Source of the DNA: Candidatus Omnitrophota bacterium
Lineage (GTDB): Bacteria > Omnitrophota > Gorgyraeia > Zapsychrales > Zapsychraceae
Length of the DNA stretch: 46,439 nucleotides
Direction: 5' to 3'
Assembly (NCBI GenBank): GCA_015233195.1
Contig: JADFYE010000015.1
Span: 1-46,439, forward strand
Both the position numbers and the translations under genes were made by a program. The notes under the pieces are model-generated. The model searched no databases and was not told the DNA's origin. It saw only the letters and a program-made list of their open reading frames with translations. Positions 977 to 26,470 of the stretch are shown in pieces. Position 1 is the first letter of the stretch. Every line of letters begins with the position of its first letter.

Positions 977-1004
977 ATTATCACAGGCAGGAGGATAATG
1001 TCAA
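977..1004 (-). promoter_or_regulatory. Sigma-70-type promoter for folE-folB
   Basis: On the minus strand TTGACA (999-1004) is followed after 16 nt by GATAAT (977-982), a 6/6 and a 5/6 match. The -35 overlaps the stop codon of the upstream GGDEF-EAL gene. A start about 7 nt past the -10 falls near 970, only about 4 nt before the folE ATG, so the mRNA would be leaderless or nearly so, in keeping with the missing ribosome site. Confidence 0.65.
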
Positions 1005-4000
1005 ATTTCACCTTTTATCTTATTCATATATGCTAAAAAATCTGCAGGTGAGACCGGTTTGCTGAAATAAAATCCCTGAACATAATCACAACCATAATCT
1101 ACTAACATTTCAAGCTGCTCCCGGTTCTCTACTCCTTCAGACGTGACTTTAATGTTCAAACTCTTGCCTAAAGAAATAATACCTTTTATAAGCGCGTTAG
1201 CATTAATATTCCCCGGCATTTCTTTTATAAAACTCCGGTCGATCTTTATCATATGAAACGGGAATTTCTGCAAATAATTCAATGATGAATATCCGGTACC
1301 AAAATCATCAATCGCAAAATGCACGCCCATAGCACAGATCTTTTTAACTGTACTCATAACATGCTCGCCGCTATCCATAAGTAAATGTTCTGTTATTTCT
1401 AACTCTAATTTTTCCGGAGGCAATTTTATTTCATCCAATACCCGTTTTACAGTCTCAGCTAAATCGCTTTGCCTAAACTGCCGAACTGAAATATTAACTG
1501 CCACCTTTAAAGATAAGCCTAACTCATCATTCCAATATTTAGCCTGATTACATGCTTCCCTTAATACCCATTCACCGATAGGAATTATCAAACCATTATC
1601 CTCACAAAGTGAAATAAATTTATCCGGCATCACTAAACCTAAAACTTTATTCTGCCAACGTAAAAGCGCCTCAAACCCTATAATCTTTCCAGTATGCAAA
1701 CATACTAAAGGCTGATAATGTAAAAAGAATTCTTTATTCTCCAAAGCGTGACGTAAATGCACCTCTAATTCCATGCGTTCCTGCATTTTTTCATTCAAAG
1801 ACTGAGTAAAGAAAAATATAGTATCGCGGTTGCCTTCTTTAGCTTTAAACATAGCAGCGTCGGCATTCTTGAATAATATATGTGAATCCCGTCCATCCAT
1901 TGGCGCGATTGTAATCCCTATACTAGCGGAAGTGAAAAGTTCTTTATCCTTTATCAAAAATGATGTTGATAACAAACCTTGAATTTTTTTCGCAATTATC
2001 TCCGCATGCGCAGGATTATCCAGATCTGACAAAATTACCAAAAATTCATCCCCGCCTAACCGTGCGACCGTATCACTTTCCCGGACAGCGGATTTAATTC
2101 TTTCAGCAGCTTGCTGTAAAACGCTATCGCCATAAGCATGACCTAGAGTATCATTTATCATTTTAAAACGGTCTAAGTCCACCATTAAAACCGCAACGTT
2201 CTTATTTTCTCTTTGAGCACGGGCAACTGCCTGAGTCAAACGGTCTATCGCCAAAATCCTATTAGGTAAATTAGTTAATGCGTCATAATTTGCCTGATAT
2301 TCTAAACGGTTCTCATATTCTTTCCGTAGCGTAATATCTTCTTCAATAGCCACAAAATGAGATATTTGCCCTTTTGAATTGTTTATTGGTGAAATGGACA
2401 CATACGACCAATATACTTCCCCGTTTTTACGTCGATTACATATTTCCCCGCTCCACATTTTTCCAGAAAGAATAGTATCCCAAAAATTTTTATAATAGGT
2501 CTGTGCCGTATATCCTGACTGCAATATCCGAGGAGATTTACCTAATACCTCTACCGCGGAATAACCAGTTATCTCTGTAAATTTTTGATTAACATATTCA
2601 ATGTCGCCTTTTAAATCAGTAATTATAACTACAGCCGGACTCTGCTCAACTACACAATTGAGTTTTAAGCTTAAATCTTTGATTTTTTGCTGTTCGGTAA
2701 CATCAAAACCTGCGCCAAAGAAAAATTCAATTTTCCCGTCGTTATTGATCACTGGCGCGCCCCGCCATTCGACCAAAATCACCTTACCATTTTTAGCAAT
2801 AATATTATTGGGAACAGCGCTAATATGCTTGCCGCTCAACATTTCACTGAACCAACCTCTTAAAAGGTAATGCTCCCGCTCTGGGACAAAAAGACTCAAA
2901 TAATCTTTACCTTCAACTTCTTCTTTCTGATATCCAGTAGCTTTTAACATCGCCTGATTAATTAACAGCGTCTTTCCTTCATTGCTTATAACCGCAAAAA
3001 ATATTGGAGAATGGTCCAAAATCGAACTGGTAAAATTCTTTTGTTTCAATAATTCTTCTTCAACCTTTTTCCGTTGAGAGATATCTGTACCAATTGAAAG
3101 TACTCCAGTTAATTTTTTATCTTGATCATAAATAGGTTTATTGGTCCAAGTAACCCAAACTTTTTCCCCATTATTTTTAATATTTTCATTATCATGATTT
3201 ATATATTTAGCCGGATTATTCACAAGATCTTGAACAAATCCTTCCAAATCTTGACCATGGGAATCTTTGGCTGGGATTATACGGTTTATGGGGCTTTGTC
3301 CGATTAATTCATCTTTAGTGTATCCGAAAAATTCCAAAGCAAATTCATTAATAAAAGTTATTCGTCCATTAATATCAGTTTTCAAAATTATACTATTGGC
3401 GTTCTCGACCAATTCCCGGTATTTTTGTTCACTTTCAAGCAAAGAAAGCTCTGCCAATTTTGTTTCAGTCTCATCCTTAAAAATCGCGACTATCTCTCCA
3501 TTAGTCAATTTAAATACAAAATTCTTAAACCATGATGTTAACCGTGCGTCTTTATACTCGCGGGTATCCATAGTCTCAGCATTACCGCTGATATTTACTT
3601 GCTGGCATAAATTAAAAACTCCCATTTGTTTTGCATATGGAAAAACATCTAGAATCCTTTTTCCAATTATGTCTTCTTTTTTTACTTTTGTCATCTGACA
3701 ACCAGCTTCATTCATATCCACAAATATGAAATCCTTACCATCATCAACCGGTTTATAAACTGCCACACCTTCTCTCATAGTATTAAACAAACTTCTAAAA
3801 CGCTGTTCACTTACACTCAATTCGCGTTCCCATTCCTTACGCTGAGTAATATCTGAAATGACCGCAAATCCACCTTTCAAATTACCTTTTTCATCAAAGA
3901 TCAACTGAGGAGAAATAAGTCCCAAAAAAATTGTTCCATCTTTTTTGGTTAACTCTAATTCATAATAGTTATTTCTTTTATCATTAGATATTTTCAAAGC

Positions 4001-4903
4001 TTTCATAAAAAGCTCGAAACCCTGCGGGGTGAGAAAATCAAATATTGGTTTGCCTATTATCTCTTCCGGGGCATAATTCAAAAATTCACAAAATCTTGGA
4101 TTTACATACTGGATACGCCGCTTAGCGTCAATAACACAAATACCATCATTCATCGTCTCAACTAATGAACGATATTGCTCTTCTCTTGATACTAATTTTT
4201 CGTCGGACTTTTGCCTATTTAATTCTTGTTCACTGAACTGCCAAATTAGATATAACGATAAAATACCTATGATAAATAACAATCTAACAAAAAGCTCAGT
4301 CAGCTCTTTTAAATATTTATTAGCTTCTTCATCTACCTCATGGACATAAAAACCAGCACCAATAATCCATTTCCAAGGCACAAATTTTTGCACAAAAGTT
4401 ATTTTTGGCAAAGTCCGGTTAGGATGATCTACCCACTGCCAATAATAATTAACATACCCACCTTCTGATATTCTAGACTTATCCAGAATATCCGTAACAT
4501 AATGTTTGCCGGTAGGATCCATATAATCCGAAATATCTAAATTTTCTAAATCCGGACGATATGGGTGCATCAGCATTATGCCGTTACTATCCAAAATAAA
4601 AAAATAATCTTTATGTTCTCCTCCGAATCGTAATAACCGGACTTGATTTAAAGCTTTTTTCTGCGCTTCTTCAAGTGATATTTGACCCTTTTCAACCTGG
4701 GTTTCATATACTTTCAAAAGATCAACCACTAACCCTGCCATTTCTCTGACCAAGGTTTTTTTTGATTCCAAAATATTAGTACGCAAGGAAGGAATCCCAA
4801 AATAAAAAACTGCCATAAAAATCAGAAAGAAAGTAATGAATATAGGAAGGATGTTTCTTACAAATATACGCAGAAGCATGTTAATAAAAAACGTTTTTTT
4901 CAT
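1001..4903 (-). CDS. Membrane-bound Cache-PAS(x5)-GGDEF-EAL c-di-GMP turnover protein
   Basis: A 1300-aa sensor that should both make and degrade the second messenger cyclic di-GMP. Order: transmembrane segment about 12-35; extracytoplasmic single Cache-like domain about 40-205 (contains DYFFILDSNGIMLMHPYRP); second transmembrane segment about 206-225; five PAS modules starting near 240, 363, 490, 622 and 745; GGDEF about 875-1035; EAL about 1045-1290. The cyclase site is intact (RLGGDEF near 949) with an RxxD inhibitory site (RESD) five residues before it. The phosphodiesterase motifs are also intact: FEALLRW, NISVRQF, EITE, DDFGTGYSSL, IKIDRSF, SEGVE and QGFYF. Which activity dominates cannot be read from sequence. 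It stands alone; its stop overlaps the folE promoter. The Cache domain suggests a small-molecule ligand outside the inner membrane. A c-di-GMP riboswitch lies 12 kb away. Confidence 0.95.
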   Translation of the reverse strand: MKKTFFINMLLRIFVRNILPIFITFFLIFMAVFYFGIPSLRTNILESKKTLVREMAGLVVDLLKVYETQVEKGQISLEEAQKKALNQVRLLRFGGEHKDYFFILDSNGIMLMHPYRPDLENLDISDYMDPTGKHYVTDILDKSRISEGGYVNYYWQWVDHPNRTLPKITFVQKFVPWKWIIGAGFYVHEVDEEANKYLKELTELFVRLLFIIGILSLYLIWQFSEQELNRQKSDEKLVSREEQYRSLVETMNDGICVIDAKRRIQYVNPRFCEFLNYAPEEIIGKPIFDFLTPQGFELFMKALKISNDKRNNYYELELTKKDGTIFLGLISPQLIFDEKGNLKGGFAVISDITQRKEWERELSVSEQRFRSLFNTMREGVAVYKPVDDGKDFIFVDMNEAGCQMTKVKKEDIIGKRILDVFPYAKQMGVFNLCQQVNISGNAETMDTREYKDARLTSWFKNFVFKLTNGEIVAIFKDETETKLAELSLLESEQKYRELVENANSIILKTDINGRITFINEFALEFFGYTKDELIGQSPINRIIPAKDSHGQDLEGFVQDLVNNPAKYINHDNENIKNNGEKVWVTWTNKPIYDQDKKLTGVLSIGTDISQRKKVEEELLKQKNFTSSILDHSPIFFAVISNEGKTLLINQAMLKATGYQKEEVEGKDYLSLFVPEREHYLLRGWFSEMLSGKHISAVPNNIIAKNGKVILVEWRGAPVINNDGKIEFFFGAGFDVTEQQKIKDLSLKLNCVVEQSPAVVIITDLKGDIEYVNQKFTEITGYSAVEVLGKSPRILQSGYTAQTYYKNFWDTILSGKMWSGEICNRRKNGEVYWSYVSISPINNSKGQISHFVAIEEDITLRKEYENRLEYQANYDALTNLPNRILAIDRLTQAVARAQRENKNVAVLMVDLDRFKMINDTLGHAYGDSVLQQAAERIKSAVRESDTVARLGGDEFLVILSDLDNPAHAEIIAKKIQGLLSTSFLIKDKELFTSASIGITIAPMDGRDSHILFKNADAAMFKAKEGNRDTIFFFTQSLNEKMQERMELEVHLRHALENKEFFLHYQPLVCLHTGKIIGFEALLRWQNKVLGLVMPDKFISLCEDNGLIIPIGEWVLREACNQAKYWNDELGLSLKVAVNISVRQFRQSDLAETVKRVLDEIKLPPEKLELEITEHLLMDSGEHVMSTVKKICAMGVHFAIDDFGTGYSSLNYLQKFPFHMIKIDRSFIKEMPGNINANALIKGIISLGKSLNIKVTSEGVENREQLEMLVDYGCDYVQGFYFSKPVSPADFLAYMNKIKGEI

Positions 4904-14522: not shown

Positions 14523-16304
14523 TTAGCTAAATGACAAAGACAATAAATTTTGAAACAGCGCTTCAAGCTCCTTTAATTGTGCCAAAGCTTTTATTTTCTC
14601 ATCTTTTAATTCTACAACTTTGGAAAACATATCCCGGTAATATTCAAAAGCTTGAGCGACATTTTCTTTTAAAGCATCAAACCCTTTTTCACCAGCAGCT
14701 TGTCCAGCACGTAAAGCGCAAGAAATATAATCTATGTACAATTCCAATTCCCGGATAAAAAGATTAGGTCGATCAACATTTTCTAAAAGATTGATCCTCC
14801 CGTAAATATGACTTACCATTTCTTCTAATGACACTATCTTCGAAAAATATATCAAATTAGGTCCCGGACATACTGCAGGAGAGTTTTCTTCTTTTTTGGC
14901 AAGACCATATTTCAATAAAGCGCCTTGCGCCAGATCAAAACATAAACAAGATTTATTAACCAATCTCTTACGTTCATTTTCAATCTCTTCTTCAGAAAGC
15001 TTCTTATCCGCCATATTCTTTAAAAATAGCTTATGATAAGCAGTTGAAGCTAAACATAAATCCTTTTTTGCAAGACCAGGATATAAAGCTAAATAACCAC
15101 GCGGACAACTGCTTCCTGGTTTTCCCATAGCGTTTTTTTCGTTTTTCTTAAGCTCACTACCGCTGTTTTTCAAAGTATAGAACGGAACATTTAAAGGCGA
15201 CACACCACTTAAAATAATATCACCCTCTTTTGAAGCGGATAATTTTTGTAAAGTATCATCGTCAACATTAGTCACTTCCGGACATAATAAAAATGGTGAT
15301 GCCCACCCAGTACCATCAACCTTAAAATAATCCCGTAAAAACTTATCTTCAGCCGCAGTACCAATACCGCCTTGTACCGTAATTCGTATCGGCTGTTTAA
15401 TATCCGTTGCTACACCTTTTTTATTTAACGCCTCAAGATATATCGAGCCTAAGGTATCGGATAATTCATTGCGTTTTTGTTGAAATTCGTCTAAGACCAA
15501 ACCCAAAGGTTTTGCGTTCTCCACAAAAGCATGACCACCGCAATTTATTCCAGACTCAATTCTATACTCACTAATCCATACCCCATGTTTAGCAAATATT
15601 TTACCTTGCAAAAAAGCTGACCTATAATCACTGATCTTTAAGATTATTTTTTTCTTAATATCGCCCAACATATCCGCATAAAAATCTTTAAATTCAAAAA
15701 GATATTTATATAATCGCTGATTTAATCCTGCAGATAAAACTACTGAACCATTCACTTTACTCTTAGCAAACCCTCTTAAAGCAGCATGTCCGTCATTGTA
15801 TTCAATCGGCATTTGCTCGCCGTTCTTATCATAATTATTCCGGTCTACCTTGACCATAATATTAATATCAATACTTCCCATCTTAACTTCACGACGCAAT
15901 TTATGCTGAATTTGTTTTTTCTGGTTATGGTCTGAAATTTTAAGCATCTCTAAATAAAGTTTCTTTAACGGCGAGGTTTCCGGAAGCATTTCAAAATATT
16001 TGGTAAGCTCTGTACCTTTTTCAAATTGCATACGTTTTATTGCAGCGATCTGTTTACGTACTATATCCCAGACCATATCCAAATAGCTAGTAATACGTTT
16101 GGCGCGGTAATCTTCCTCACCTTTATTTATCGGGAAATAATCTTTATTATATTTTTCACAATAATATTTTCGCATCCGCTCGATTAGCTCATCATCCGCC
16201 ATTGGAATAACCGACGATATGCCAAAACGCGCTATTTTTATTGGAGTATCAATTGAATATCCAGTTCCCATAACCGGAACATGAAATGAATGTACATTTT
16301 CCAC
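14523..16304 (-). CDS. Conserved cysteine-rich protein of unknown function, possible FMN/TIM-barrel
   Basis: A 593-aa soluble protein without signal peptide. Function unknown; I recall similar uncharacterised proteins starting xxVHxFHVPVMGxGxxIDTP in other phyla. The middle part contains [11 protein letters not shown] and [20 protein letters not shown], reminiscent of nitronate monooxygenase-like FMN barrels (a glycine-rich phosphate loop). The second half is rich in spaced cysteines: [41 protein letters not shown] and [13 protein letters not shown], which could bind a metal or Fe-S cluster. It starts with GTG and has GGGAGG 9 nt upstream. It is first in a unit with metX-metW, behind an attenuator-like leader, so a link to methionine or sulfur metabolism is plausible but inferred. 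Confidence 0.75.
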
Positions 16305-16723: not shown

Positions 16724-16975
16724 ATGAAAATCTTAACCATTCTAATTACCGCAGCAATGCTTTGCACAAGTCTGGTCTGGGCAGAAACAAAAAGTTACAC
16801 AGTCTCTGTAGTTATTCCGCAGATAGTCGGAGTCAACTTCTTTCCCAACCAGGATAATCAGCAGATCACAAACAACAACAGATCAGTATATACTCAATCA
16901 TCCCAGCTGATATCTGAAAATGAAGAAATGCAAGGAAATCAACTCGTTACAATAAGAACCATCGTTGCCAAATGA
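16724..16975 (+). CDS. Small secreted subunit-like protein under c-di-GMP riboswitch control
   Basis: An 83-aa protein with a clear signal peptide (MKILTILITAAMLCTSLVWA, cut before ETKSY), leaving about 63 mature residues. AAGGAG 7 nt upstream fixes the start; the frame is open further up but lies in the terminator. The mature N-terminus KSYTVSVVIP resembles the N-termini of the nearby subunits (KTYAVSVTLP at 20728-21402), and the C-terminus QLVTIRTIVAK resembles their last strand. The whole central domain of those subunits is missing, replaced by an Asn/Gln/Ser-rich stretch. It may be a capping, priming or regulatory mini-subunit of the same fibre; that is inference. Its stop is 4 nt from the convergent usher-like gene. 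Confidence 0.8.
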   Translation: MKILTILITAAMLCTSLVWAETKSYTVSVVIPQIVGVNFFPNQDNQQITNNNRSVYTQSSQLISENEEMQGNQLVTIRTIVAK

Positions 16976-16979
16976 TGTT

Positions 16980-19820
16980 CTATTTTTTCTTTAAAGGAAT
17001 GTAAAAAACAAAGGTAGAACCTTCTTGCAAAGAAAAAGTTTTTTGAAGACTAACACTGGGTATATACTCCAAAGGAATCGAATTTATATCTATTTTTAAC
17101 ATATGCTCGCCCTTGCTCACACCCTGAAAAACAAACGTCCCGTTCTGATCACTCTTAACTGAAGATTTTTTATCTAAATATATTTTTACACCAGGAATAA
17201 ATTCTTCCCCTCTATCCGGCTTTTTATTATCATTCAAATCCAGAAAAACAATACCAAAAATACCAGTATTAGTTGATAAACCAAAATTAGCCATTTGCGT
17301 CTTATATCCGGTCAAAGTAAGTTGTACATTACCCGGTGTGCTCAAAATATAACCCGCAGGAATCGTATCAACCAAAACTTCTGCTGTGGCGTGCTTTGCT
17401 CTTATTTTAGTTGAATAAAATCCTTTAGCGTCGGAAATAAGGGTCTTTTTGCCTAATTGAATTTTTACGCCCGACACACCAGGCTCATCAAACTCGCGGC
17501 TGCCATTTGCATTATTATCTTTATATACATACCCTTCTATCTTAGCTAATGGCGTCCACGAAAAAGGACTTTCTAAAGAAGTTCGTACGCCTCCGCGTAA
17601 AGCAATTTCACGATATGGATCACTATTATTACTTTCAGCCCAAACATTAGAAAACCTGCTGTCAAAATATATTTGAAAATCAGGCGATGGATTAAAACTA
17701 GCTGATACCCCGGTATTAAGACTATCCTGCCCACTTAAAAAACTATTAACCCCCTCGGTATTCTGTTCATCCCGATAGTAAGCATTCGCAGAACCAGATA
17801 AATGATCACTAAAATTATGAGTATAATAAAATCCTGATGTAAAAACGCTCGGCGACGCCCAAGTTTTAATCCCTTTAGTTTCTATCCAAGAGAATTCCAT
17901 ATTAGAAAATTGGTTTAAATTATCCAAAACCGGCAAATCATATCCTACCGAAGTAGAATATCGATCATATTCAGAAACTCCGCCGGAATCACTTCTGCTT
18001 ACCTGATATAATCCCTGAATAAAAGTGTTTATTTGCCGTTGACCCCAAATTGGAAATCTCTTAGAATAACGGTTTGAATATTGAAAATTAGTTCGCGGCG
18101 AGATTTCCTGCGGATTATTCGAATAACTTACCGCAGTCTCCATTTGTCCGTCATAAATAAAAGGAGTATCCAGTATCGTCGATGTATCAATGTTTACCCC
18201 ATTCTCATTATCCGGATTCGGATAAGCCAGATTATTATATAAATTCAAATTAGAGCTCAGATATACATTATCCGATGGACGCCAATTCCAATCGAGCAAG
18301 CCCGCGATCTCCCCGTTATAAGCGGGAAAGCCTGCGGTATTCTGATATTCAGGATGAATATTATAGAAACTTAAATTTAATTTTGTCAGATCCGTAGAAT
18401 ATCTTGTGCCAACCGAAGCAGCGGTATGATTTTCATCATAACCAATCTCTCCGCGGGAAAGCCAATGGTCAAAGGTCCGAACTTGCCCTTCTACAGACAT
18501 CACCCTATCCGGCAAAGTAGCCATTCTTCCTTGACCAAATCCTCTGGCAAAATTAAACGCGACATTGTTATCCTTATCAGGGAACAATTTAATACGCGCA
18601 CCCTCAGTATAATTATCTCCTTCAGTACTGGCAGACAAACCATTAAATACACCAAAAGTACCTAAATCTTTTCCTCTGAAATACGAAAATTCAACTAAAC
18701 TTTCCAGCATCTTAACATTAGCGAAATATCCGCGTAAACTTTGTAAAGGCGCGCTTAAATCCGAAAATCCACCCTGTCCATCAAAGACCCGTAAATTATA
18801 ATTATTGATCAAACCTAAACTGCCTCGAGACAAACCAATAGTGTAATAAGAAGGATCCGCCTCCTCATTATTTTGAGTAGTAGTTAAAGCCATATCCAAA
18901 AACCCATACGGAGTTTCCCCAGTTATATTATTGGCATAAACGTATTGTAAAGACTGCCGTCTCATATCAGCTTCTTTTCTTCCTGAAAAAACTGTATTCC
19001 AGTCGATAGAAGTATAAAGTTTAAAAGGTTCGGATTTACTTAACGCTTGCTCTTGCTTTCGCTGCGCAGTTTGATCCACCGGGATTATGGTGTTTATATC
19101 TAAATTCCATCTTCCCTTTTCATCCCAGATATATAACAAAGTTTTTCCAAACAAAGCTTTCACGCCTAAACGATTAATATCAATTTTAGAAACCTCGATC
19201 ACACCCGGAGTAAGTGCTAAAAATTTCTGGATATTCCGACCTTCAAAAATATATGATTTATCAAATTCAAGAGTCATTGCTATTTTCGGCATACTTTGCC
19301 ACAAAGCGTCATCCAGCATTATAGTTTTTGTTACTTTTACCGACGCTGGAGCAGAAATAACTTTTGATTCAGGAGAAGAAACAACTTTAACTTCAGGCGT
19401 GGCAGATTTAACATCAGAAGCAGCAGTAGCTCCGAATTTTGATACAGCAGTGGGAACCTGCGAATTTTCCGCAGCATCAAGAGCCTTTTTTAAAGCAGCT
19501 TCCCTATCAACATAAACTGTTTTTTTCTCATACGACTCAAGAATTTTCGCCACCGTATTCTCAACAGGTTTCTCGACAGAAATTTCTTCTTTACCATTAA
19601 TACTTTGAATTAATTCGATTAATTCTTGGGGTTCGTTTGCTGACGGTTCAATCGATTTCGCTTTATTAAAACTATCTAAAGCTTTAAAATATTTTTTTTG
19701 ACCTAAATAATTTTTTCCTTCTTCCAACAAATATTTATAGACGAGAGAATATTCGCTGTGCGCGGGCAGAGCATATAGCATAAACAAAGTTGAAGCAAAA
19801 ATGATGACATATTTTCTCAT
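16980..19820 (-). CDS. Usher-like outer-membrane barrel with pilus-secretin N-domain and two SdrD-B-like domains
   Basis: A 946-aa exported protein. Order: signal peptide 1-22; TPR-like helices about 25-70; a charged, Ala/Ser/Val-rich linker about 75-165; about 181-246 a domain like the pilus-secretin N-domain (T2SS/T3SS pil_N type), with EFDKSYIFEGRNIQKFLALT and LLYIWDEKGRWNLDI; about 255-755 a long stretch of alternating aromatic strands typical of an outer-membrane barrel; then two B-type Ig-like domains at 761-853 and 854-946, each opening with a DxNxNG-like calcium loop (KDNNANGSREFDEPG; LDLNDNKKPDRGEEF). N-domain, barrel and two C-terminal sandwiches parallel the layout of fimbrial ushers, though I see no direct usher sequence signature. 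It is last in an operon with a chaperone and subunits, so secretion or anchoring of the fibre is the likely role. Confidence 0.7.
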   Translation of the reverse strand: MRKYVIIFASTLFMLYALPAHSEYSLVYKYLLEEGKNYLGQKKYFKALDSFNKAKSIEPSANEPQELIELIQSINGKEEISVEKPVENTVAKILESYEKKTVYVDREAALKKALDAAENSQVPTAVSKFGATAASDVKSATPEVKVVSSPESKVISAPASVKVTKTIMLDDALWQSMPKIAMTLEFDKSYIFEGRNIQKFLALTPGVIEVSKIDINRLGVKALFGKTLLYIWDEKGRWNLDINTIIPVDQTAQRKQEQALSKSEPFKLYTSIDWNTVFSGRKEADMRRQSLQYVYANNITGETPYGFLDMALTTTQNNEEADPSYYTIGLSRGSLGLINNYNLRVFDGQGGFSDLSAPLQSLRGYFANVKMLESLVEFSYFRGKDLGTFGVFNGLSASTEGDNYTEGARIKLFPDKDNNVAFNFARGFGQGRMATLPDRVMSVEGQVRTFDHWLSRGEIGYDENHTAASVGTRYSTDLTKLNLSFYNIHPEYQNTAGFPAYNGEIAGLLDWNWRPSDNVYLSSNLNLYNNLAYPNPDNENGVNIDTSTILDTPFIYDGQMETAVSYSNNPQEISPRTNFQYSNRYSKRFPIWGQRQINTFIQGLYQVSRSDSGGVSEYDRYSTSVGYDLPVLDNLNQFSNMEFSWIETKGIKTWASPSVFTSGFYYTHNFSDHLSGSANAYYRDEQNTEGVNSFLSGQDSLNTGVSASFNPSPDFQIYFDSRFSNVWAESNNSDPYREIALRGGVRTSLESPFSWTPLAKIEGYVYKDNNANGSREFDEPGVSGVKIQLGKKTLISDAKGFYSTKIRAKHATAEVLVDTIPAGYILSTPGNVQLTLTGYKTQMANFGLSTNTGIFGIVFLDLNDNKKPDRGEEFIPGVKIYLDKKSSVKSDQNGTFVFQGVSKGEHMLKIDINSIPLEYIPSVSLQKTFSLQEGSTFVFYIPLKKK

Positions 19821-19858
19821 ATAAGAATTTTAACATTAAAAATCAAATGGGAAAGTTT

Positions 19859-20656
19859 TTAGTCGGAAATTTTATCTATGCTGATAAGACTCCCGTTTTT
19901 GGTCAGAGTGATTTCTTTATTAATTACATCCTCATCCTGCAGATCAAAAGAAAGCATTAAAGTATAGGTCCCATCATCCTTTATTTTTGGATCAAACGTC
20001 AAATCTTTTACAGTTGATGGCGGCAAATATATATTTTCCAAATCGCCCCTATCAACAACATTACCGTCGCTGGTTATCAAATTATACACCGGGTGACAAA
20101 CTACAATTACATTACCCTTATTCTCAAAATTCATAACAATTTTATTGTCTTTTACTTTTATATCAGTAATAACCGTAGTCTTACTTTTCGTAACTGGCTC
20201 AACAAAAAACAAACTTCCGGTTCTTGACACTAAATTTATACTTTTACCGCCCATGGACGCAGACTCAGGCGCGTTTTCAAAAAATAAAACCCCATAATGT
20301 CCTTCATTAAAAACCTCTGGTACTTTTACAGTATAAGTAACAATTTGTTGACTCCGAGGAGACAGTTTAAACGTAGTCGGACTGGTCGATACCCAAGCGC
20401 CTACACTATTCGGACTTACTCCCTGCGGCATAAAATCTTTGGCACCATCAAACGGCGGTTTATAAGCAAAGTCTTCGAAATACGATTTGATGCTAATTTC
20501 TTTATTAGTGGTGTTGTGAATTACAATCTCGCCTGAAGCAGTTGAATTTGGTTCCGCGTTAAGGACTATTTTACCTTGTTCAATCATAATTTGAGCGTTA
20601 GCTAAATATGGAAAAAATAACAATGCTACGGTAAAAATAAATAATTTTTTTAACAT
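19859..20656 (-). CDS. Periplasmic chaperone-like protein (PapD/DUF916-like, two Ig-type domains)
   Basis: A 265-aa exported protein: signal peptide 1-21 (cut after YLANA), then two predicted beta-sandwich domains, about 22-145 and 150-265. The first has the pattern of fimbrial chaperones and of DUF916-type proteins: IVLNAEPNSTASGEIVIHN, FKLSPRSQQIVTYTVKVP and GHYGVLFFENAP, where PapD-like proteins have PxxFxLxPxxxQxVR and YRxxF. No cysteine disulfide is present in the mature protein (one Cys only). It lies between the pilin-like gene and the barrel gene, the classical place for a chaperone. The usual basic Arg-Lys cleft of PapD is not obvious, so it may be a distant or independent member. 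Confidence 0.65.
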   Translation of the reverse strand: MLKKLFIFTVALLFFPYLANAQIMIEQGKIVLNAEPNSTASGEIVIHNTTNKEISIKSYFEDFAYKPPFDGAKDFMPQGVSPNSVGAWVSTSPTTFKLSPRSQQIVTYTVKVPEVFNEGHYGVLFFENAPESASMGGKSINLVSRTGSLFFVEPVTKSKTTVITDIKVKDNKIVMNFENKGNVIVVCHPVYNLITSDGNVVDRGDLENIYLPPSTVKDLTFDPKIKDDGTYTLMLSFDLQDEDVINKEITLTKNGSLISIDKISD

Positions 20657-20685
20657 AAATAGTCCCTTTTGGAAAAATTCAAATT

Positions 20686-20720
20686 AAAAGCAAGGAGAGC
20701 ATTACGCTCTCCTTGCTTTT
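20686..20720 (-). terminator. Strong hairpin between pilin-like gene and chaperone gene
   Basis: AAAAGCAAGGAGAGC and its perfect complement form a 15-bp stem with a 5-nt loop (ATTAC), 8 nt after the stop of the pilin-like gene and 30 nt before the chaperone start. The U tract is only TTTT then AATTT, so it is probably a leaky terminator or a 3'-end stabiliser, which would give more pilin mRNA than chaperone/usher mRNA. Confidence 0.75.
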
Positions 20721-20727
20721 CTTTAAT

Positions 20728-21402
20728 TTAACTTGCTGTAGCAGAAATTGTAAGTGTTCCGGAATAAGCACCTGATTTATCTGAAGCCACGAAAGGTTTC
20801 AAATCTGCATCAGGCGGTGTACCTGCTCTTCCAACCCACATCCCAACATACAAACGGCACCAAGTGCCTGCAGGAAATGATGTGCTGGTCAATGACATAG
20901 TACCAATATTCTTTAAAGCTTTTTCAGAAAGAATAACTTCACTAGTACTGGTGGCGGAAACATAAGTAACCTGTGCAGCTGAAGCGATCATTTTATAACC
21001 TAATTTTTGATCAACTGGCTGACCAGTCGGAGCGCTGCCTTCAGTATAAGACAAAGTAACATTGCTCAATGATGCAAATTTAGGAGCTACCTCGATCGCA
21101 AAATAATAATTGGATTTATACACATCAAAAGTAGCGCCTGTACCAGGATCGGTCAAACCAAAACTTACATCTCCAGAGGCTAAAGTCAAACTGGAAACTT
21201 CTGTGCTCCAAGTATCATCAGTGGCAGTAGCTGTACCTTTACCATCAATTTTAAAAGCTTTAATATTAAGTATCGGTGTTTGTGTAGGCAGCGTTACTGA
21301 TACCGCGTACGTCTTGGTGCTGGTGATAGCAAAGCTTTGCGTGGCGCACAGACCAAGCACAAGCAATGCTCCCAAAACTGAGCTCATGGTTAATTTTTTC
21401 AT
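20728..21402 (-). CDS. Major pilin-like fibre subunit
   Basis: A 224-aa secreted protein with signal peptide 1-25 (cut after QSFA). The mature N-terminus TSTKTYAVSVTLPTQ has alternating hydrophobic residues like a donor strand, and it ends in AYSGTLTISATAS, like the last strand of spore-coat-U/Csu-type subunits. It is Thr/Ser/Ala-rich with one cysteine. It is paralogous to the product of 22891-23499: shared YTEGxAPxGQ, KLGYK, RLYxG, ADLxP and the C-terminal strand. AAGGAG 8 nt before the ATG is the best ribosome site of the cluster, and the hairpin after the gene suggests high expression; both suit a major structural subunit. Confidence 0.72.
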   Translation of the reverse strand: MKKLTMSSVLGALLVLGLCATQSFAITSTKTYAVSVTLPTQTPILNIKAFKIDGKGTATATDDTWSTEVSSLTLASGDVSFGLTDPGTGATFDVYKSNYYFAIEVAPKFASLSNVTLSYTEGSAPTGQPVDQKLGYKMIASAAQVTYVSATSTSEVILSEKALKNIGTMSLTSTSFPAGTWCRLYVGMWVGRAGTPPDADLKPFVASDKSGAYSGTLTISATAS

Positions 21403-21442
21403 TGTTTCATCTCCTTGTATTTTTTATTTTTGATTTTTAATT

Positions 21443-22813
21443 TTATTTTTCACTTAATGTATATACAACTGACGCCTTATAAGTTCCTGCTTTAAGTTCC
21501 GCGTAAGGTTCCAATTTATATAAAACCTTAAACTCAGAAGCGGTTCCATTGTTGTCAGATAAAAAGATTGGATTTTGATTAACATCTACTTCTTTAAATC
21601 CAACGCTTTCAACTTGTCCGCGCTGGTTCTCACCCAGTACTTGTTTAGTAGTGAAATACCGCGAATCATAAACTTCCGATTTCTCATTCATCAGCGGAGT
21701 AACGAATTTCTGCATAACCGCATAAGGTTTTTTCATGTTCGTCTTAACCTTAACTGCCACTTCTTTGCTTTGCGGAGGCATATCCGGTAAAACCTTATTG
21801 AATGAGACACCACCTTCGGGAAATTCAACATTCATTTCAAAGATCGGTTGAACATCAATCAGCACGCTTACATCATAAGTACTGGTATTACTTTCAGTTT
21901 CCACTTTATACCGCATGATGCCGCGGTATTTTCCAGCAAACAGATCTGATTGATTAAGAGTAAAAGGAATTTTAATCGTATCCTGACTATTACTCGACTT
22001 ATAAATCAGATCATTCATTTTTACTTCCGCATAACTCGACTTAATACTTTGCTCAAATTCAGGCTGAACTTTAAACACCAAAGCTGATCTATCAAGTATT
22101 TTTGAATCTTCACTCTGAGGAGGATTTAACCATTCTTGATAAATTCTGATTTCCTTCCCGTCGTTCTCGCTGAATTTAATCACCACTCCGTCTTCTTTTA
22201 TGCCGTTCTTATCCTGAACTACTTCAACTGAATTCTTAATGTTAGCCCCTTCGACACTAACCTTTAACTGCGATGCTACTTTGTCGATATAAAGGTTAAC
22301 AAAAATCCGGGCTTGCGCACTGCTGCCTATAGTCCTGACCTCATACTGAACCCTGGAGAAAAAATTACCTGAAACATTTATCTGATCCTTATCGACCATA
22401 TACATCATACTGAAATTACTGCCTTCACCTGAAGGGCTGGACGTATATATCAATTGATCGGTTAATCCTAATGATTCAGGAACCTGCACATATAAAGTCC
22501 CGGACGAATTCGAGTCATTTCGGGAATAAGTTTTAATTGCCATAGGTGTAAGCGTCTGACCTTGTTCATTCCGGGGGCTGTCTAACAAAGTTTGAAATAC
22601 CTGATATTGTTTGCCCTCAGTTGAGGTTATTCTAACCCGGACTTCTTTCAGCAGGTCATCCTGCGTCTCTAAACGGCTGAATCTGATATTCGGACTTCCG
22701 TCAAGAGGCGTTACACTTACCGCAACACCGGCATTACACGGAATTAACAAAACCCAGCTTAAAAACAATAAAGCTGACATAGAGAAAAGTATTTTATGAA
22801 CTTTATTAGACAT
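21443..22813 (-). CDS. Secreted protein with three tandem Ig-like repeats (possible tip or base subunit)
   Basis: A 456-aa exported protein (signal peptide about 1-28). It is built from three repeats of roughly 145 residues beginning near 70, 223 and 364: YQVFQTLLDSPRNE, IRIYQEWLNPPQSE and YAVMQKFVTPLMNE. Each then has a (L/P)I(Y/F)xS turn and closes with a strand like FSRVQYEV, YRGIMRYKV or YKASVVYTL. The N-terminus GVAVSVTPLDG echoes the subunits. No enzyme motif or cysteine pair is seen in the mature part. Size and position before the pilin-like gene suggest a tip, anchor or adapter. I do not recognise a named family. Confidence 0.65.
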   Translation of the reverse strand: MSNKVHKILFSMSALLFLSWVLLIPCNAGVAVSVTPLDGSPNIRFSRLETQDDLLKEVRVRITSTEGKQYQVFQTLLDSPRNEQGQTLTPMAIKTYSRNDSNSSGTLYVQVPESLGLTDQLIYTSSPSGEGSNFSMMYMVDKDQINVSGNFFSRVQYEVRTIGSSAQARIFVNLYIDKVASQLKVSVEGANIKNSVEVVQDKNGIKEDGVVIKFSENDGKEIRIYQEWLNPPQSEDSKILDRSALVFKVQPEFEQSIKSSYAEVKMNDLIYKSSNSQDTIKIPFTLNQSDLFAGKYRGIMRYKVETESNTSTYDVSVLIDVQPIFEMNVEFPEGGVSFNKVLPDMPPQSKEVAVKVKTNMKKPYAVMQKFVTPLMNEKSEVYDSRYFTTKQVLGENQRGQVESVGFKEVDVNQNPIFLSDNNGTASEFKVLYKLEPYAELKAGTYKASVVYTLSEK

Positions 22814-22832
22814 AATTTATCCTTTTCTTTTC

Positions 22833-22861
22833 ATCTTAGTTAATCCCTGACCCGATGTCAA
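22833..22861 (-). promoter_or_regulatory. Internal promoter before the three-repeat protein gene
   Basis: TTGACA (22856-22861), 17 nt, TAAGAT (22833-22838), with AAGGAT and the ATG at 22813 close behind. It would let the tip, pilin, chaperone and usher genes be transcribed apart from the first subunit gene. Confidence 0.5.
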
Positions 22862-22890
22862 GTTTCCCTAAATTATTTGTCAAAGAACAG

Positions 22891-23499
22891 TTACGGCGCG
22901 ACTGCTGTTACTGTTATTGTTCCGGTATACGTACCGGCTTTATCATAACTCTTAAACGTTTCAGCTCCCCGAGGAATAAGATCCGCGGTTTCTGATCCGT
23001 CAATTATCCCAATATATAACCTTAAAAATCCATCACCTTGTGCAATATTGATAGTATCGCCTGATTTAATCTCATTAAAATATTTGATCGCGTGACCAGG
23101 AATCGCGAACTCAACACCATTTTTTACCTTAGCAAAATTAATCTTACCTTTATAACCCAATGTTTTCACTTGACCAGCCGGCGCTGTCCCTTCTGTATAT
23201 TGAACCGTAGTAGCAACTCCGCTAGTTCCTGAAGCAATATTCACATCAACCACAAAAAATTTGTCCGGCAAATATATTTCAGAATCCGTCTGATAAACCA
23301 AAGTCCCAAAATTTAATTCCTGAGTCGCATTAATCTCATTAAAAGTCTGCGGTGCATTTTTAGCCATTGTATAAGCGCCAATATCAAGCCGCGTAATATT
23401 AGGAACAAAAGCTGTGATCATGAACTGCTCAGTATTAGCTGCTATACAGAGTTGAGCAGTAAAAAAAATAAAAAATAAAAGTATGAAAAATTTTTTCAT
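22891..23499 (-). CDS. Pilin-like fibre subunit (paralog of the major subunit)
   Basis: A 202-aa secreted protein with signal peptide MKKFFILLFFIFFTAQLCIA. The start at 23499 has AGGA 9 nt upstream; the frame stays open upstream to 23640 but crosses the promoter. The mature N-terminus QFMITAFVPNITRLDIGAY looks like a donor strand, and the end AGTYTGTITVTAVAP is a terminal subunit strand. It shares YTEGTAPAGQ, LGYK, RLYIG and the C-terminus with the 224-aa subunit, so the two arose by duplication. As first gene of the cluster it may be a minor or initiating subunit. Confidence 0.7.
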   Translation of the reverse strand: MKKFFILLFFIFFTAQLCIAANTEQFMITAFVPNITRLDIGAYTMAKNAPQTFNEINATQELNFGTLVYQTDSEIYLPDKFFVVDVNIASGTSGVATTVQYTEGTAPAGQVKTLGYKGKINFAKVKNGVEFAIPGHAIKYFNEIKSGDTINIAQGDGFLRLYIGIIDGSETADLIPRGAETFKSYDKAGTYTGTITVTAVAP

Positions 23500-23566: not shown

Positions 23567-23595
23567 AGTATAAAATATATAGTATATGGTGTCAA
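23567..23595 (-). promoter_or_regulatory. Consensus promoter of the fibre gene cluster
   Basis: TTGACA (23590-23595) and TATACT (23567-23572) with exactly 17 nt between them, a near-perfect sigma-70-type promoter, 70-100 nt before the first subunit ATG and just after the miaB stop. Confidence 0.75.
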
Positions 23596-25477: not shown

Positions 25478-26470
25478 CTAATTCAATTTATTTATCAAAT
25501 TTACCACCAAAGCCACGATAATGTTTTTTTCTTTAGGCTGGCTTTCGGCGATCATTAATGTTATTGCAACCAAGGCATTATCCGCAAGGCGCTTACTGCC
25601 GTCAGCTTTATAAAGAATTTTATTGCGGTCAAGGAAATAAACAAACAATGCGGCAGCGATACGTTTGTTGCCGTCTGAAAAAGAATGGTTCTTGACCACT
25701 AAATAAAGCAGATTAGCAGCTTTTTCTTCAACACTTGGATAAAGGTCTTTGCGACCAAACGTTTGATAGATTGCACCTAAGGCGCTTTTAAAAGACTCGT
25801 CTTTTTCATGCCCAAATAAGCTGCTGCCTCCGAATTTTTGCCGCATTTGCTGAATAATATTTATCCCTTCAGCATAATTTAATTGATATGATTCTTTTGC
25901 GGTTGCTGACTTGATCTGAACGCGTCCATGGTCATAATCATCCAATACATCTAATCCATAACTATAATCACGGATTACTTCAAATAATCCTTTTGCTTCA
26001 TCACTGGTCAAAGCTTTACGTTCACTCAAATCAGCCAGCATCTGAACAGTTCGCTGTAATGACTTTAGATTTGCAGTCTGCTCTTTTAACCGCTTATCAT
26101 TAATAGTATAGCCTTTAATCAAATGCTGTTTTAAAACATTTGTCGCCCAAATGCGGAATTGTGTGCCACGTTTAGAATTTACACGATAGCCGACTGAAAT
26201 TATGACGTCAAGATTGTAAAGATTAACCGGTTTATCTGAATTAGCAATGTGCATTTTTTGCACATTACTTTTTTGATCTAACTCTTTAGTTTGGAATATA
26301 TTTTGTATATGCTTAGTTATAACACTGCGTTCTGTAAGAAATAATTCTGACATTTGCGCCTGCGTAAGCCAGACTGTTTCCTCTTTCAACTGGACTTCCA
26401 GAGTTGCAGTCTCTCCCTTAGGTCGAAATATAACTACATTACCTAAATTTGATATATCAGTTTTATTCAT
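25478..26470 (-). CDS. RhuM-family protein with C-terminal Fic/Doc domain
   Basis: A 330-aa cytosolic protein. Residues about 10-150 are RhuM-like, with a helix-turn-helix region (VWLTQAQMSELFLTERSVIT) and the hallmark ISVGYRVNSKRGTQFRIWAT. Residues about 195-330 are a Fic/Doc fold with the active-site loop NHSFSDGNKRIAAALF (HxFxDGNKR). Fic/Doc enzymes transfer AMP or phosphate groups to target proteins. Fused RhuM-Fic proteins are known in bacteria, often near restriction or toxin modules, but their targets are unknown. No separate antitoxin with an inhibitory (S/T)xxxE(G/N) helix is obvious nearby. The neighbours are unrelated small genes. Confidence 0.85.
   Translation of the reverse strand: MNKTDISNLGNVVIFRPKGETATLEVQLKEETVWLTQAQMSELFLTERSVITKHIQNIFQTKELDQKSNVQKMHIANSDKPVNLYNLDVIISVGYRVNSKRGTQFRIWATNVLKQHLIKGYTINDKRLKEQTANLKSLQRTVQMLADLSERKALTSDEAKGLFEVIRDYSYGLDVLDDYDHGRVQIKSATAKESYQLNYAEGINIIQQMRQKFGGSSLFGHEKDESFKSALGAIYQTFGRKDLYPSVEEKAANLLYLVVKNHSFSDGNKRIAAALFVYFLDRNKILYKADGSKRLADNALVAITLMIAESQPKEKNIIVALVVNLINKLN

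Follow-up and report, generated by a model that had tools for sequence, protein, structure and literature searches.

In this study, a candidate chaperone–usher fibre assembly locus was analyzed in a window of 46,439 nucleotides (the whole stretch of DNA considered here; contig JADFYE010000015.1) from a Candidatus Omnitrophota genome. Five consecutive open reading frames (ORFs) lie at 16980-23499, all on the minus strand and separated by intergenic gaps of 38 to 77 bp, as an earlier reading of the DNA without database searches (the sequence-only reading) had described. In the direction of transcription they encode a secreted subunit (sub1), a three-domain secreted protein (rep3), a second secreted subunit (sub2), a chaperone-like protein and an usher-like outer-membrane barrel. 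That description of the gene set was correct for these five genes and overlooked a sixth at 16724-16975 on the plus strand, which is convergent to the barrel gene and encodes a small secreted protein. Three independent lines of evidence support assignment to the chaperone–usher type: the match of the chaperone-like protein to EcpB, the FimD/PapC-like fold of the barrel, and the free N-terminus of the subunits together with their fold matches to donor-strand fibres. The features are collected in Table 1.

Table 1. Features of the putative fibre locus, with positions in the window, strand and basis of assignment
Feature	Position	Strand	Basis or remark
sub1, secreted fibre subunit, 202 residues	22891..23499	-	Signal peptide, donor strand, immunoglobulin (Ig)-like body ending at last strand
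N-terminal extension of sub1 resembling a donor strand (residues 22-33), NTEQFMITAFVP	23401..23436	-	No strand in model; consensus
sub2, second secreted subunit, 224 residues	20728..21402	-	Conserved position before chaperone
N-terminal extension of sub2 resembling a donor strand (residues 26-39), ITSTKTYAVSVTLP	21286..21327	-	Motif comparison
rep3, tandem array of three pilin-like domains and proposed tip of the fibre	21443..22813	-	Three homologous domains
rep3 domain r1, starting at first body strand, no donor strand ahead	22268..22729	-	hhalign register r1-r3
rep3 domain r2	21848..22267	-	hhalign
rep3 domain r3, donor-like strand STYDVSVLIDVQP ahead, ending right behind last strand	21446..21847	-	hhalign
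Periplasmic chaperone-like protein, 265 residues	19859..20656	-	EcpB profile match, first of 111 in hhalign; weak WxLIP/DUF916 similarity
G1-like strand of the chaperone (residues 138-147), KSINLVSRTG, with hydrophobic residues in alternation and then R-x-G	20216..20245	-	Aligned to EcpB G1 segment ATASARIG
Usher-like outer-membrane protein, 946 residues	16980..19820	-	Predicted model and Foldseek ranking
N-terminal TPR-type helices, residues 25-75	19596..19748	-	Weak TPR matches; model
Small beta domain before barrel, residues 163-245, PF13629-like	19086..19334	-	PF13629 matches; strands in model
Plugless beta barrel of 26 strands (residues 267-750)	17571..19022	-	Model; loop survey
C-terminal beta-sandwich 1, SdrD_B-like, residues 753-838	17307..17564	-	PF17210, E 4e-13
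C-terminal beta-sandwich 2, CarboxypepD_reg-like, residues 840-945	16986..17303	-	Pfam; homologous to sandwich 1
Small 83-residue secreted protein, candidate fibre cap or terminator	16724..16975	+	Donor strand and C-terminal strand, no body
Small-protein donor-strand motif, residues 21-32, ETKSYTVSVVIP	16784..16819	+	In register with subunit N-terminus
Intercistronic hairpin between sub2 and chaperone gene, perfect 16-bp stem	20686..20720	-	z -7.0
Promoter-like TTGACA-17-TATACT upstream of sub1, sigma-70-like	23567..23595	-	Consensus match only

The core order rep3–subunit–chaperone–barrel recurs in about 40 loci (about 40 genomes of the order) and is kept in nearly all complete loci, those of distant families of the class among them; the order subunits–chaperone–barrel is conserved across the phylum. 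This conservation is far above chance and supports the proposal, made in the sequence-only reading, that gene order and roles fit a chaperone–usher operon. sub1 is an extra copy at the head of the operon, which is shared with L032, the sister genome, and with a small number of other genomes. An initial scan of genome contigs using a single barrel sequence gave no match; for pattern searches the barrel alignment was too variable, whereas the chaperone alignment was usable. Chaperone profile matches were found in 141 of 384 genomes drawn across the Omnitrophota phylum, and the named relatives are nearly all Candidatus Omnitrophota. Among 92 relatives, the chaperone is present in 45 and the barrel in 52 (E ≤ 0.001), part of the weak barrel matches being to the C-terminal domain alone. 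Almost all operons for which the contig is long enough include a barrel of the usher-like type. The system escapes standard profiles: no pilin, usher or fimbrial chaperone model of Pfam or NCBIfam exceeded the threshold for the five ORFs, in which the sequence-only reading had likewise recognized no standard signatures, and family-wide Pfam scans matched no subunit, usher or chaperone family either. The usher family PF00577 was detected in the E. coli positive control and in none of the 92 relatives.

The barrel was modelled with AlphaFold2 (AF2) from 36 homologues, with a mean predicted local distance difference test (pLDDT) score of 82.9. The predicted chain begins with helices, continues through a disordered stretch into a small beta domain and a barrel of 26 strands as counted by DSSP, and closes with two beta sandwiches (758-945 in the model) that are homologous to each other (E 6e-14). 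In the family of 37 members, Pfam finds SdrD_B in all, a PF13629-like domain in 34, CarboxypepD_reg in 33 and weak TPR matches; PF00577 is not among the families listed. When the model was compared with 350,542 chains using Foldseek, ranks 1 to 13 were all FimD or PapC structures, with E from 2e-19 to 3e-10, and the first non-usher followed at 1.2e-8; a plain porin was rejected as a description of the barrel on these thirteen best matches. The usher trait is thus present at the level of the fold as a barrel followed by two C-terminal sandwiches, as in FimD and PapC. Template modelling (TM) scores are modest for every match, reaching 0.44-0.45 for usher translocation domains when normalized by target length and 0.40 for MtrB, so the protein is called usher-like and is not said to superpose on FimD; this assignment is based on the order of the domains and on the E-values from Foldseek. 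The sequence-only reading had treated both an N-terminal domain and the two C-terminal sandwiches as extra. All of these domains are present; the C-terminal pair, however, is normal for an usher. In three homologues (L173, L171 and L176), about 300 residues follow the barrel, compared with the usual 200 or so, and the L173 copy contains three SdrD_B stretches according to Pfam, which may correspond to an additional C-terminal domain.

The family profile of the chaperone-like protein was searched against the whole PDB, where EcpB (5dfk) was the sole significant match (E 0.003 and 0.0026). EcpB also ranked first in an hhalign comparison with 111 sequences (10 proteins of the Ecp and Fim systems, 71 further E. 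coli K-12 proteins and 30 shuffled EcpB sequences), with a score of 46.7 against 30.3 for the next. Within domain 1, the aligned region runs from strand D up to and including the G1 donor strand. Residue roles in EcpB were taken from the literature (PMC4654587) and positions follow the numbering of K-12 EcpB. The superfamily proline, Pro60 of EcpB, corresponds to P93 and is kept in 38 of 44 family members. Positions 140, 142 and 146 of the G1 strand are mostly V, I or L, in the alternating hydrophobic pattern, and are completed by R-[V/I/L]-G as in EcpB, with R145 in 43 and G147 in all 44 members; in domain 2, from which archaic and alternative chaperones contribute a Tyr and an Arg to the carboxylate anchor, R203, Y210 and Y231 are conserved residues without an assigned role. 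Of the earlier description as a PapD/DUF916-like chaperone, the chaperone kinship is supported and the DUF916 part is weak: the WxLIP families PF06030 and PF11797 (DUF916/DUF3324) stay below the cut-off for the window protein, whose sequence ends without a hydrophobic helix. Across the family, WxLIP_PGBD matches 19 of 39 members and WxLIP_HBD 6 of 39, all below the Pfam cut-off, which suggests a possible older kinship to the Gram-positive WxL system. Remote relatives occur on Patescibacteria contigs (L121:9033-14329 and L122). The L121 relative is membrane-anchored and adjoins a gene for a secreted protein, and a neighbouring barrel is missing; since both are WxLIP-like, and L121 is anchored and barrel-less, they were not counted as members of the system.

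sub1 and sub2 are paralogues, as had been proposed, with 27% identity and reciprocal detection at E 7e-9 and 4.5e-9. The N-terminal extension of sub1, directly after the signal peptide, follows the consensus FxVSAxVP (FxVxAxVP), in which Pro33 is near-invariant. In the AF2 model of sub1 (mean pLDDT 87.7), residues 15-37, including this motif, form no strand and are not built into the fold, and the body is a beta sandwich with its final strand at the very C-terminus. The suggestion of donor-strand-like N-termini was borne out to this extent, and the model is not that of a fold complete in itself; an incomplete Ig fold with a free N-terminal extension, the trait of chaperone–usher pilins, is present in the predicted structure. 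The seven top PDB matches of the model in Foldseek were Pyrobaculum bundling pili, TasA, FimG (twice), a Sulfolobus thread, CfaB and CfaE. Superpositions were weak and only the first match passed E 0.001. Archaeal threads and TasA are donor-strand fibre subunits (PMC9715654, PMC9674648), and all seven of these best matches belong to such fibres; the predicted fold of sub1 is pilin-like. The N-terminal extension of CfaB has a proline, Pro13, at its end (PMC6760452), and Pro33 would occupy the equivalent place here. No pilin family (SCPU, CS1, DUF4402 and others) exceeded the threshold in 41 subunit members, DUF4402 appearing once at E 0.21. At three loci (L051:2866-4377, L079:10424-11890 and L160:6763-8277), a glycoside hydrolase family 26 (GH26) domain is fused to a C-terminal subunit domain beside the operon.

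The third secreted protein was correctly recognized as a three-repeat protein: the domains of rep3 are mutually homologous in hhalign (E 8e-19, 4e-18 and 1.5e-9). The first body strand of r1 begins two residues past the likely signal cleavage site, and donor-like strands precede r2 (QARIFVNLYID) and r3 (STYDVSVLIDVQP). Features in common with the subunits are limited to an AGxYxG end motif. In L173, L174 and L175, which belong to another class of the phylum, and in L080, two single-domain genes stand before the chaperone in place of rep3. One of the two has an N-terminal extension and the other has an r1-like start without an extension; in L173 and L080, the extension-bearing gene aligns with the r2-r3 linker plus r3. 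On the simplest reading of these sequences, rep3 would be a fused tip that lacks a donor strand of its own, holds cis donors inside and leaves a single groove free to receive the first subunit of the shaft.

The gene of the small protein stops 4 bp from the stop codon of the barrel gene. It is present in 34 of 38 loci having DNA downstream of the barrel and in the majority of distant loci, and is absent from a few operons (L064, L066 and L163). The product consists of a signal peptide, the donor motif, a variable linker and a short C-terminal strand, the last without a profile match to the subunits. Its mature N-terminus matches that of the subunits at E 0.0013, compared with 0.04-0.2 for rep3, the chaperone and the barrel; signal peptides inflate the subunit value to 1e-9, and the mature-only value was used. 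Over the whole genome, the subunit profile finds three places only, namely sub1, sub2 and the small gene (E 0.0037). Because of the shared in-register motif and this genome-wide match, the small protein has the appearance of a subunit of which little more than the donor strand is left. In L173, the small-protein profile weakly matches full-length secreted proteins (184-189 residues), one of them at E 6e-5.

These components can be arranged into an assembly pathway, in which chaperone–subunit and subunit–subunit strand exchange and the order of the fibre are inferred. The subunits, whose signal peptides are seen directly, would reach the periplasm by the general secretion route, where the two-domain chaperone would hold the incomplete Ig-like subunit and lend its G1 strand. 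The usher-like barrel, with its two C-terminal sandwiches, would catalyse donor-strand exchange and export the growing fibre. rep3, with cis donors for its first two domains and none at its N-terminus, would form the tip. The shaft would consist of sub1 and sub2, both of which would offer an open groove as well as a donor strand. Finally, the small protein, a donor without a body, would fill the last groove, and growth would end. Possible expression elements were also found. Hairpins comparable to that between sub2 and the chaperone gene (z -5 or below) occur at the same place in about eight relatives, and such a structure could fit an excess of subunit mRNA over that of the chaperone and usher. 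Sigma-70-like sites in the region are near chance in number.

Taken together, the locus is best explained as a diverged chaperone–usher fibre assembly system unseen by standard profiles, with a probability of roughly 0.85. The single-domain subunit genes that replace rep3 in a distant class, the GH26 fusions and the shared donor motif were also counted in favour of this explanation. Several observations weigh against it. The barrel of the predicted model has 26 strands, and not the 24 of known ushers; the TM-scores of the fold matches are low (0.25-0.45), and the N-terminus of the barrel protein is of a different type, with TPR and PF13629-like regions. Known ushers are built from an N-terminal domain, a pore with an internal plug and two C-terminal domains, CTD1 and CTD2 (PMC3960871). 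The longest inter-strand loop in 36 homologues is 19 residues, and no insertion of at least 8 residues was found in the window barrel and 20 more distant homologues; the plug is thus absent throughout these 56 homologues. Neither the barrel nor the subunits have detectable sequence homology to E. coli Ecp or Fim proteins, ranking within the null set. In addition, Arg89 of archaic and alternative chaperones, which anchors the subunit carboxylate, is Gly in 42 of 44 family members (aligned G122). Given the relation to EcpB, the proline and the G1 strand without this arginine, the protein is distantly related to the alternative chaperones and probably works like them, failing one defining feature. 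The description of the system is drawn from its genes and from single-protein models. A bolder proposal, that the locus represents a separate chaperone–usher class, restricted to Omnitrophota as far as seen and defined by a plugless 26-strand usher and a start–extend–stop logic (a donorless fused tip, a shaft with donor and groove, and a bodiless cap), is tentative, and the odds lie somewhat against it.

The absence of a plug would also fit an ordinary large porin or electron conduit with neighbours from an unrelated surface layer, and MtrB (6r2q_B), a 26-strand porin, was indeed matched at E 1.7e-8, with TM-scores near those of FimD. However, thirteen usher structures stand above MtrB, with E-values as much as eleven orders of magnitude better; the fixed adjacency of chaperone and barrel in about 40 genomes fits an usher, as do the two C-terminal sandwiches; and the ORFs examined next to the barrel include no cytochrome gene, which leaves the porin very improbable indeed. 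Nearly as improbable is a WxL-like surface complex, in which the chaperone would be a Gram-negative cousin of WxLIP (DUF916/DUF3324) acting as a permanent envelope holder, with no hand-over to an usher. The sub-threshold WxLIP matches and the membrane-anchored relative in Patescibacteria speak for such a complex, whereas the missing C-terminal membrane helix of the window chaperone, WxLIP scores that are all below the cut-off, EcpB as the best PDB match and the usher-like barrel in almost all operons of sufficient length speak against it.

Within a donor-strand fibre system, the small protein could have one of several roles. PapH and FimI end fibres with a full body (PMC3960871, PMC10673952), and by the logic of donor-strand exchange a small peptide could fill the last groove, offer none and end the fibre; that it is a terminator is conceivable, at somewhat less than even odds. 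A donor motif without a body would also suit a starter or strand-lending helper, for which TapA, described as a strand-complementing chaperone of TasA (PMC10151520), offers a precedent, and barrels that are plugless in all homologues would suit a stopper of the pore. The operons from which the small gene is missing argue against an essential pore stopper, and a helper or stopper role in place of termination is doubtful, though far from negligible.

Among known systems, the alternative chaperone–usher system EcpABCDE of the E. coli common pilus resembles the locus in its sequence-related chaperone EcpB, its adjacent pilin, chaperone and usher genes and the donor strand at the subunit N-terminus; by eye, a TDENGEF motif resembling the barrel sandwiches is also seen in the terminal segment of EcpC. 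The locus differs from it in that no usher or pilin homology is detectable and that Arg89 of the chaperone is replaced by Gly, and in having a rep3 tip concatemer, a donor-only small protein and a plugless barrel. The class 5 fimbriae CFA/I (CfaABCE) share the subunit fold, in CfaB and CfaE, and the proline closing the N-terminal donor strand (Pro13 and Pro33; PMC6760452), whereas no Pfam profile matches and the usher differs. With the classical FimCD/PapCD systems the locus shares the usher fold, the order barrel–CTD1–CTD2 and a FimG-like subunit fold, but it is without PF00577 and has 26 strands, no plug and the TPR and PF13629-like N-terminus. Gram-positive WxLIP proteins have two tandem Ig-like domains and a remote similarity to the chaperone; however, they are membrane-anchored, and no usher and no donor-strand fibre are known for them. 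The terminators PapH and FimI, as well as TapA, provide an extra accessory strand donor that ends or starts a fibre. In contrast to the bodiless small protein, PapH and FimI are full pilins.

With the proposed assignment, chaperone–usher fibres would extend to an uncultured phylum of large size, where PF00577 detects no member among the 92 relatives searched, and such systems may be under-counted elsewhere. A full-text literature search found no paper on a fibre system of this kind from Omnitrophota. Type 4a and Tad pili are mentioned in the main survey of genomes from this phylum, whereas ushers are not (PMC10066038). An usher without a plug poses the problem of pore closure. A bodiless donor strand, if it is indeed a terminator, would be the simplest fibre terminator. 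The GH26–subunit fusions suggest that some fibres carry a polysaccharide-acting enzyme or a glycan binder.

An expanded operon was observed in L112 / L158 (fen_1318, G240:C18), where subunit genes alternate with three chaperone genes and the small gene lies on the same strand; the contig stops before any barrel. Within the window, a 593-residue protein without a Pfam match at E 0.01 is encoded just past the small gene (14523-16304, minus strand). The gene at 1001-4903 (minus strand) encodes a large sensor in which a Cache domain and four PAS domains are combined with GGDEF and EAL domains, the latter indicating cyclic di-GMP turnover; it may be linked to the fibre. At 25478-26470 (minus strand) a Fic domain is fused to a RhuM-like N-terminal domain.

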